From: a virus
IMG/VR virus record: IMGVR_UViG_3300034682_000144
Coordinates: 1 to 38,508 of that record
Length of the DNA stretch: 38,508 bases
Reading direction: 5' to 3' (one strand)
The notes beneath the pieces were generated by a model. That model saw only the letters and a program-made list of their open reading frames with translations. It did no database searches and was not told the DNA's origin. Within the stretch, counting starts at the first letter, position 1; the number at the start of each line of letters is the position of its first letter. Shown one piece after another: positions 1 through 38,508 of the stretch. The translations under genes were made by a program, and so were the position numbers.

Positions 1-40
1 CTGTAAGGCAGGGGATTGGGGGCTGCGGGGGGGAAAACAA

Positions 41-70
41 AAAAGGCCCACCTTTCGGTGAGCCTTTTTT
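41..70 (-). terminator. Native tRNA-Thr terminator, displaced by prophage
   Basis: A GC stem (AGGC.CACC / GGTG.GCCT with a TTTC-type loop) is flanked by A and T runs, so it can work in both directions. Read on the minus strand it ends in TTTTTT. It lies just beyond the tRNA 3' remnant at 80-127, in the position expected for the terminator of the minus-strand tRNA-Thr gene before integration. The prophage now separates it from the working tRNA by about 37 kb. Confidence 0.75.
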
Positions 71-79
71 GATACTGCG

Positions 80-127
80 TATGGTGCCGGCACCAGGAAT
101 CGAACCCGGGACCTACTGATTACAAGT
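80..127. other. attL core (3' half of tRNA-Thr)
   Basis: These 48 bases are identical to 37028-37075. They contain the tRNA-Thr 3' half on the minus strand, from the anticodon loop through the T arm and acceptor stem to the encoded CCA. The match stops just after the anticodon loop, where left and right copies diverge (ACC versus CAG). This is the duplicated core left by site-specific integration. Confidence 0.95.
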
Positions 128-37027: not shown

Positions 37028-37105
<78 letters not shown>

Positions 37106-37116
37106 AATGGGGCGTC

Positions 37117-37144
37117 ATTATAGCGATCGTTTGGCGCCTGTAAA
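37117..37144 (-). promoter_or_regulatory. tRNA-Thr promoter
   Basis: TTTACA (-35, 37139-37144) and a perfect TATAAT (-10, 37117-37122) are separated by 16 bp and point into the tRNA. Between -10 and the tRNA is GC-rich sequence, as in stringently controlled stable RNA promoters. This promoter is host DNA and survives integration. Confidence 0.85.
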
Positions 37145-37203
37145 CCACTTCCTTGCGAATGTTCGCAAAAGACCTAAGTCACCGGCCCAAAAGAAGAATT
37201 TTC

Positions 37204-37452
37204 CTACCAGCCGCGGTGCATGGTGGTGACGCTAGGCTCGTTTTTACCCGGGTTGAAAAACAGCTTGTCATTATCGCAGCCGCGCTTGCGGCATGGGGCT
37301 TCTGTGCGCAGGGGCAGGCCGTTGTCGCCGCCCAGCTGCATGCCGGGGTGGTTCCAGCCCAAGTTGCTGTTGGGTTGGGGCGGGGTGCCGCCGGCACAGC
37401 CGGTCAGGGCCAGGGCGAAGGTCAACAGGGCGAGGGGGTTGGCTCGGGTCAC
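37204..37452 (-). CDS. Small host lipoprotein, 82 aa
   Basis: It starts MTRANPLALLTFALALTGCA, a lipoprotein signal with lipobox LTGC (Cys 19). The mature part is Gly-, Pro- and Asn-rich (GGTPPQPNSNLGWNHPGMQL) and has a Cys pair (EAPCRKRGCDNDKLFFNPG). No enzyme motif is present. It is a small envelope protein of unknown role, upstream of tRNA-Thr and part of the host genome. It reads towards the tRNA promoter, with about 60 bp between. Confidence 0.8.
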   Translation of the reverse strand: MTRANPLALLTFALALTGCAGGTPPQPNSNLGWNHPGMQLGGDNGLPLRTEAPCRKRGCDNDKLFFNPGKNEPSVTTMHRGW

Positions 37453-37605
37453 GATGCTCAGGTCCGGTGGTCCATTGTCGGTTCTGGCGCAACGCCAGAA
37501 GGTCGCGGGGCTGGCGGGCAGCGCGCGACGTCACTTTTTAATGATTTGGGGGACGGATGATACACCGTTGCGGCGGTGGAGCATTAGCCTTGTGTTGTCT
37601 GGTAT

Positions 37606-37640
37606 GGCCTCTTCGCGGGTGAACCCGCTCCTACAGGGGG
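37606..37640. repeat. P. putida-type REP element
   Basis: A 35-nt palindromic element with GCGGGTGAACCCGC in its core and CTCCTACAGGGGG at the end closely matches the REP sequence scattered in hundreds of copies through P. putida genomes. It is the only recognisable item in 37453-37780. Confidence 0.8.
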
Positions 37641-37780
37641 CGGGTAAGCCGGGTTATCTGTGTAAGGGAATTCTGAACCATGGGGTCAAAAGCTTCAGGG
37701 TTTGGATGCTTCGGAAGTATCCTACGCGCGCCGCCGAAGTAACGCTGTTGTCGGGGAAGTGGCTCACGGATACCGTTTTC

Positions 37781-37905
37781 GGGTCGCTCTGGCGACTGGG
37801 TGTGAGAACCCGACTTGAATAAGCGCTACTCGCCATGGTGGTCGTACGTGGGCAGACCTCGGTCTGGCCGGGCTTCCTTATTCACTCGGTTTCTCACCCT
37901 GCGTA
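37781..37905 (+). ncRNA. C4-antisense-like structured RNA
   Basis: The RNA has a 5' hairpin (GTCGC-TCTG-GCGAC, 37783-37796) and nested long-range stems: GTGAGAACC (37802-37810) with GGTTTCTCAC (37888-37897), and TGAATAAG (37816-37823) with CTTATTCA (37877-37884). Inside is the hairpin CAGAC-CTCG-GTCTG (37853-37866). The two 3' strands are also complementary to GTGAGAAA (37925-37932) and GTGAATAAGG (37954-37963), just before the DUF3077 gene; the second contains its RBS. This is the a'/b' versus a/b logic of phage P1 C4 RNA. Confidence 0.7.
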
Positions 37906-37970
37906 CGGCTGCCGCCCCAAATCCGTGAGAAAGATTTTTGGCAGTCTCCTTCCGTGAATAAGGATTTGCC

Positions 37971-38246
37971 ATGAAAAAAGATGTTTCTGAGCCAATCACA
38001 ACCGCAGGCGTGGAAACCTTCCTCGCAGCCGGTAACCCATCCCTCAATCTCCTGCGCGTAGAGCCCGGCGTCCCCGTCGACGCGGCCTACGAGCATGTCT
38101 CGATCCTGATGGGCTACATCAAGCACCTGGTGCGCGAGGGGGATATGGAGGACGACCATAAATTCCTGGGTGCAGCCGATTACCTGTGTGACATGGCCAA
38201 GGCGCTGATGAACGATATCGAGATCGCCAAGGGTAAGGCGCATTAG
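37971..38246 (+). CDS. DUF3077-type protein, 91 aa
   Basis: This 91-residue soluble protein begins MKKDVSEPITTAGVETFLAA and includes SLNLLRVEPGVPVDAAYEHV and DHKFLGAADYLCDMAKALMN, the pattern of the Pseudomonas DUF3077 family (small, helical, many paralogues). The role is unknown. AAGGA lies 6 bp before the ATG and is part of the segment that can pair with the upstream C4-like RNA, so translation is probably silenced by that RNA. It belongs to the host flank, not the prophage. Confidence 0.82.
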   Translation: MKKDVSEPITTAGVETFLAAGNPSLNLLRVEPGVPVDAAYEHVSILMGYIKHLVREGDMEDDHKFLGAADYLCDMAKALMNDIEIAKGKAH

Positions 38247-38261
38247 GCATTGACGCGGTCA

Positions 38262-38381
38262 TTTGTGGGAGCGACCTTGCGTCGCGAATGGGCTGCAAAG
38301 CAGCCCCGGCGATTTCAGAGATTGCACTGAAAACGGGGGCCGCTTTGCGGCCCATTCGCGACGCAAGGCCGCTCCCACAAA
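38262..38381. repeat. 120-bp inverted repeat (REP pair)
   Basis: TTTGTGGGAGCG and the following CTTGCGTCGCGAATGGGC are mirrored by GCCCATTCGCGACGCAAG and GCTCCCACAAA. Each arm holds an inner GC palindrome (GGGCTGCAAAGCAGCCC and GGGCCGCTTTGCGGCCC). A unique 20-25 bp centre separates the arms. It looks like two inverted REP-type units (BIME-like) and would fold strongly in RNA after the DUF3077 gene, perhaps acting as a terminator. Confidence 0.75.
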
Positions 38382-38382
38382 A

Positions 38383-38508
38383 TGGACTGCCCCCAAGAAG
38401 TTGGACACCAATCCAACCCTTGGGGGATCTATGGGTAAGTACACCGAGCAATTCAAGCTCACAGCGATCACAGCCTACCTGGATGGCAGCAACGGTTTCC
38501 GAAAGGTG
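38383..38508 (+). mobile_element. Start of an IS3-type insertion sequence
   Basis: TGGACTGCCCCCAAGAAGTT followed by GGACA is typical of the terminal inverted repeat of IS3/IS150-type elements. It begins two bases after the inverted repeat at 38262-38381. A transposase OrfA follows 48 bp later. The right end is outside the window. Confidence 0.75.
38431..38508 (+). CDS. IS3-family transposase OrfA, partial
   Basis: Only the first 26 codons are inside the window: MGKYTEQFKLTAITAYLDGS then NGFRKV. This is the usual beginning of the helix-turn-helix OrfA of IS3-family elements (KYSxEFKLxxVxxYLxG), which binds the terminal inverted repeats and is fused to OrfB by frameshifting. The frame is open to the window edge. 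The TIR lies immediately upstream. Confidence 0.78.
   Translation, partial: MGKYTEQFKLTAITAYLDGSNGFRKV

Follow-up and report, generated by a model that had tools for sequence, protein, structure and literature searches.

C4, a textbook example of an antisense RNA in phages, has been characterised in detail in P1 and P7. The P1 record annotates a1, b1, C4 (77 nt), a2 and b2 before icd, and describes a2 and b2 as the sites that are targeted to repress icd/ant translation. In P1, RNase P cleaves the RNA, which blocks translation (PMC5320573, PMC8198154). To judge from its citation in PMC5320573, the work of Weinberg et al. (2010) already reported C4 in Pseudomonadales, and processed species of the C4-like Group 1 sRNAs were observed in Acinetobacter baumannii (PMC5320573). 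In this work we have analysed a stretch of 38,508 nucleotides from an IMG/VR virus record (the window), in which a C4 RNA lies ahead of a gene for a DUF3077 protein. We consider it very probable that this is a chromosomal C4-type module, in which a processed C4 RNA pairs with two target boxes, a2 and b2, and represses the translation of DUF3077. Membership of the family, the anatomy of the boxes and their covariation, the copy number and the location were computed directly, and it is the processing and the repression that we infer.

The Rfam covariance model for C4 (RF01695) matches positions 37831-37919 on the plus strand of the window with 62.5 bits, against a curated cut-off of 45 bits, and the window RNA is a true member of this family. 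A sequence-only reading of the same DNA had proposed the a'/b' design of C4; this match, obtained by the very check with the Rfam model which that reading had suggested, and the covariation of the boxes with the RNA described below both bear the proposal out. The elements of the module are as follows.

37770 to 37816, plus strand: c4-a1b1 element (RF03163), 22.9 bits, E 8.6e-4, under the gathering score of 46.7
37802 to 37808, plus strand: box a1 (GTGAGAA), complementary to a'
37815 to 37823, plus strand: box b1 (TTGAATAAG), complementary to b'
37837 to 37916, plus strand: C4 antisense RNA, predicted mature part (RF01695 match, ends by analogy with P1 C4, fold z -4.3)
37876 to 37885, plus strand: b' segment (CCTTATTCAC), loop of the third stem
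37890 to 37897, plus strand: a' segment (TTTCTCAC), unpaired joint
37925 to 37932, plus strand: target box a2 (GTGAGAAA), exact complement of a'
37954 to 37963, plus strand: target box b2 (GTGAATAAGG), exact complement of b', covering the ribosome-binding site
37971 to 38246, plus strand: DUF3077 protein of 91 aa (PF11275, 57.1 bits)

The order a1-b1-C4-a2-b2-ORF is that of phage P1. The mature RNA is placed at 37837-37916 because the end points of P1 C4 were carried over by analogy, and its predicted size of about 80 nt replaces the 110-120 nt expected earlier. The GGT at 37837-37839 agrees with the 5' GGW of P1 C4. Alone, the RNA takes the C4 shape (-39.4 kcal/mol, z -4.3 against shuffles), and when 37835-37917 is folded the three stems form, the third one carrying b' in its loop, and a' falls in the joint. 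All of the exact pairings previously claimed between two segments of the RNA and boxes near the DUF3077 start are present, and the AAGG of the ribosome-binding site lies inside b2, 7 nt ahead of the ATG at 37971. The 'own 5' strand' with which the same segments had also been said to pair corresponds to a1/b1, and when the whole leader is folded to minimum energy these boxes do pair with a'/b'. The leader resembles the c4-a1b1 motif RF03163 (Weinberg et al. 2010, PMC2864571) in position and in shape, and its a1 likewise occupies the loop of hairpin two. Its a1/b1 letters, however, follow another code than the model consensus; although the score is below the cut-off, the exact boxes and their covariation show that the upstream pair is present.

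Could the module belong to the phage? The window contains a tailed, P2-like prophage whose terminal repeat lies inside tRNA-Thr (tgt), and the IMG/VR record takes in the right host flank.

81 to 127 and about 37029 to 37076: direct repeat of the prophage ends, 46-49 bp, inside tRNA-Thr

Integrase, primase, tail, head and terminase genes are found between the repeats. The C4-DUF3077 module lies about 0.6 kb outside this prophage at a conserved chromosomal site, and the window-type copy occupies one conserved chromosomal position beside tRNA-Thr in many species. In other genomes the relatives run collinear with 37029-38246, through the tRNA. The empty site is represented by L013, in which the equivalent of window 19-127 is joined directly to the equivalent of 37028-38382. 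Because the module is outside the att repeats, its relatives are collinear and an empty site exists, we regard it as part of the host chromosome, and these three observations confirm the small chromosomal gene of the sequence-only reading. The position outside the att repeats rules out that the module is a phage gene. Directly after DUF3077, at 38250-38380, there is a long imperfect palindrome (REP-like, TGTGGGAGC...GCTCCCACA), which occurs at the same place in several relatives in either orientation, and right after it, at 38390-38508, is the apparent start of an IS3-like insertion sequence.

We gathered C4 loci around DUF3077 genes, from whole genomes and from P1, located them with a model built here, and measured pairing as the longest Watson-Crick run, with a threshold of at least 7 bases. 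Non-cognate combinations were those without a shared 5-mer. Among 116 non-redundant loci, 93% of the cognate combinations of a' and a2 reached the threshold, against 0.1% of the non-cognate ones, and for a' and a1 it was 97% against 1.4%; for b' the corresponding values were 61% against 2.5% with b2 and 56% against 1.8% with b1. The observed mean pairing was attained by none of 5000 permutations, and the excess of cognate over non-cognate pairing rules out chance complementarity. These loci contain at least 15 distinct a' 7-mers, each with a matching a2 and nearly always a matching a1, and 72 distinct b' loops. The pairing of b' with b2 is imperfect at many loci. Nevertheless, in close homologues both sides have changed in 8 of the 10 b'-b2 pairs (covariation 0.302, shuffles 0.200) and in 6 of the 8 b1-b' pairs (0.461 against 0.216), and both signals are abolished when the pairing partner is slid. 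Compensatory changes in both pairings, which had been named as a check on the proposal, are thus seen in the homologue alignments as well as in the 116 loci. The loci are related, so that the counts do not equal independent events, and the shuffles keep this relatedness; the coordinated change at three separate sites is a stronger argument than the counts. One such case is L003, whose DUF3077 protein is 93% identical to that of the window, yet the b boxes have changed: its b' is CCTACGTTCAC, matched by b1 over 8 bases, and its b2 is GAACTAGGG, a bulged match.

How specific are such codes where many modules share one cell? Pseudomonas sp. BP8 (G001, the genome behind L040) holds 24 C4 RNAs. By eye, about 19 of them precede an intact or broken ORF starting with M-[KLRF]-K-[IVL]-V-P-D-P-P or near it; of the rest, three are ahead of other small ORFs and two are apparently degenerate. 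By the summed a2 and b2 score, 18 of the 24 RNAs have their cognate leader at the top, 14 of them without a tie, and 19 of the 24 leaders have their cognate RNA at the top. The codes in this genome are largely private, but not absolutely so, since 40 of the 552 non-cognate combinations also satisfy a double test with loose limits.

The proposed repetition at paralogous loci is seen in these 24 RNAs and across the genus, as 110 of 120 sampled Pseudomonas genomes have C4 above the Rfam cut-off, often in 20-33 or more copies per genome, where 33 equals the number of candidates scored and is a lower bound. DUF3077 occurs in 94 of the 120 genomes, in up to 19 copies. In a class-wide sample, C4 was found in 18 of 274 genomes, with 1-6 copies each apart from BP8. 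Among the 20 C4 RNAs outside BP8 in that sample, a match of at least 7 bases was present in a2 for 19 and in b2 for 18, and an ORF usually follows about 50 nt downstream. Four of these ORFs are of phage-regulator types (AntA, KilA-N, Bro-N and Rha). One gammaproteobacterial locus of this sample (L157) has four C4 RNAs within about 1.4 kb, one of them before a KilA-N gene, with differing a' codes and a nearly constant b' loop. A phage antirepressor switch that expanded in Pseudomonas and was joined to other small genes is the likely history.

C4 lies on the same strand upstream of 75 of 80 DUF3077 loci, and two of the five loci without it have less than 240 nt of upstream DNA. There are two layouts. 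In that of the window the DUF3077 ORF directly follows the boxes; in the other a DUF6124-like leader ORF comes between them. This leader ORF may be distantly related to DUF3077, as suggested by hhalign (probability 62, E 7e-5) and by weak Pfam cross-matches to DUF6124 and DUF3077. The structure model of DUF3077 is a helical hairpin (mean pLDDT 89), for which the PDB gave no significant match in fold or sequence. With no PADLOC match, identity with a known defence protein was rejected, and so was that with a known phage protein, with zero matches in the phage collection and only a PHROG of unknown function. P1 Icd gave no match to the DUF3077 family. One copy of DUF3077 is on a plasmid. In the open-access literature we found no paper on DUF6124 and one passing mention of DUF3077, in furfural-tolerant P. 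putida, where an insertion restored a DUF3077 pseudogene (PMC9630843); as a clue to the role of the protein this is suggestive only.

The region upstream of the module also has conserved elements.

37662 to 37677, plus strand: operator-like motif, forward copy (GTAAGGGAATTCTGAA), 2 mismatches to GTAGGRNNTTTCYNAA
37710 to 37725, minus strand: operator-like motif, inverted copy (GTAGGATACTTCCGAA), 1 mismatch to GTAGGRNNTTTCYNAA
37748 to 37776, plus strand: putative promoter TTGTCG-N17-TACCGT, proposed from conservation among loci of the TTTCTCAC class

Most Pseudomonas C4 modules have the 16-bp motif GTAGGRNNTTTCYNAA, in either orientation, on their upstream side at a distance of about 120-175 nt. 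With at most one mismatch allowed, BP8 has 35 matches, and the reversed pattern has 8; about 16 of the 35, including 7 of the 10 exact ones, are just upstream of C4 RNAs. Inverted pairs 47-48 bp apart occur at six C4 loci of this genome, and the two copies in the window, 48 bp apart, have the same arrangement. Shared promoter ancestry contributes to the conservation of the motif, for which reason a common regulator can only be inferred. There is also an exact match around position 1501 of L158, without a nearby C4 and beside an ORF that, judged by eye, resembles Abi_2-type proteins. A scan for the sigma-70 consensus found nothing, and the putative promoter is weak by consensus.

We suppose that a1/b1, the C4 RNA, a2/b2 and the DUF3077 ORF are made as a single transcript, in which the C4 part would adopt its three-stem fold and would probably be excised by RNase P. 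The freed RNA of about 80 nt would place a' on a2 and b' on b2, masking the ribosome-binding site and repressing DUF3077. As C4 and its target would share one transcript, transcription would produce its own repressor, and the protein would be made only if C4 were titrated, mis-processed or outpaced. Because each module has its own code, repression would mainly concern that module's mRNA. Pairing of a1/b1 with a'/b' in the precursor would compete with the C4 fold and may time processing. Could this competition itself be the switch, setting translation in cis with little or no free processed RNA? The two leader folds are nearly equal in energy (-56.9 kcal/mol with a1/b1 paired, -55.4 kcal/mol for the C4 fold) and a1/b1 covary as strongly as a2/b2. 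However, the C4 stems covary too, with changes on both sides in 17 of 27 stem pairs of the consensus fold of C4 loci, and the Acinetobacter C4-like RNAs accumulate in processed form with a 5' start at the GGW motif (PMC5320573). We therefore consider a mainly cis-acting switch unlikely.

There are also rival views of the role that the module may have. Perhaps it is selfish and addiction-like, with C4 as an RNA antitoxin against a harmful DUF3077 protein or leader-ORF product, the private codes having evolved to stop one paralogue from silencing another. Such a view is about what the module is for, and the proposed mechanism could hold alongside it. The many copies per genome with differing codes, the existence of a plasmid copy and the inhibition of cell division by icd, which occupies this position in P1 (PMC8198154), would fit such a role, but the lack of a PADLOC match and the fixed position of the window-type copy by tRNA-Thr in many species do not, and we hold it to be a tentative and rather doubtful possibility. 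It might also be asked whether chromosomal C4 RNAs act in trans as immunity, silencing the antirepressor operons of incoming phages with matching boxes. Outside Pseudomonas C4 does stand ahead of the antirepressor-type genes mentioned above, and the commonest Pseudomonas a' class is identical to that of P1. Yet nearly every C4 copy has local target boxes and the b' codes vary as widely as the 72 loops indicate, which makes this reading very improbable.

If the pairing rule holds, the roughly 60 bases after any C4 RNA are enough to tell its target, which would be a direct test for targets of the Acinetobacter C4-like RNAs, and the DUF3077 family could be assigned a regulator, a regulon and an origin in evolution. 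With so many codes in one genome, nature supplies a set of RNA repressors and targets whose pairs are nearly insulated from one another. In the open-access literature we found no paper on C4 in Pseudomonas chromosomes, nor any mention of C4 acting on DUF3077 or on the leader ORF, of the Pseudomonas scale, of near-private codes or of the operator pair; apparently new are the expansion throughout the genus, the two kinds of target (DUF3077 and the leader ORF) and the codes that are nearly private. It is an evenly balanced question whether a phage lysogeny-control RNA has here been turned into a genus-wide, dispersed Pseudomonas regulon, in which each genome carries tens of modules with near-private codes, the targets are small proteins (DUF3077 and that of the KIVPDPP leader ORF) and one regulator reads an upstream operator pair common to the modules.

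Among the known systems, the C4-like Group 1 sRNAs of A. baumannii (PMC5320573) resemble the modules described here in being numerous on the chromosome of a single genome and in having target segments that vary. For those RNAs varied bacterial or incoming-phage targets were proposed (PMC5320573), whereas the target in the window is the adjacent ORF, with matched boxes. The closest likeness is to c4-icd-ant of P1 and P7, in the three-stem RNA, the order of the boxes, the position of b2 over the ribosome-binding site and the similar spacings: the gaps in the window and in P1 are 6 and 7 nt between a1 and b1, 8 and 3 nt between the C4 end and a2, 21 and 22 nt between a2 and b2, and 7 and 10 nt between b2 and the ATG, although the 13 nt between b1 and C4 are fewer than the 66 nt in P1. 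No P1 C1 operator was identified at the window module, and no same-strand ORF after DUF3077 was identified as an antirepressor, so the comparison with a P1-type icd-ant operon failed in this respect. Unlike the phage systems, the module is chromosomal and outside the prophage, has DUF3077 in place of icd/ant and carries a different, operator-like pair upstream.
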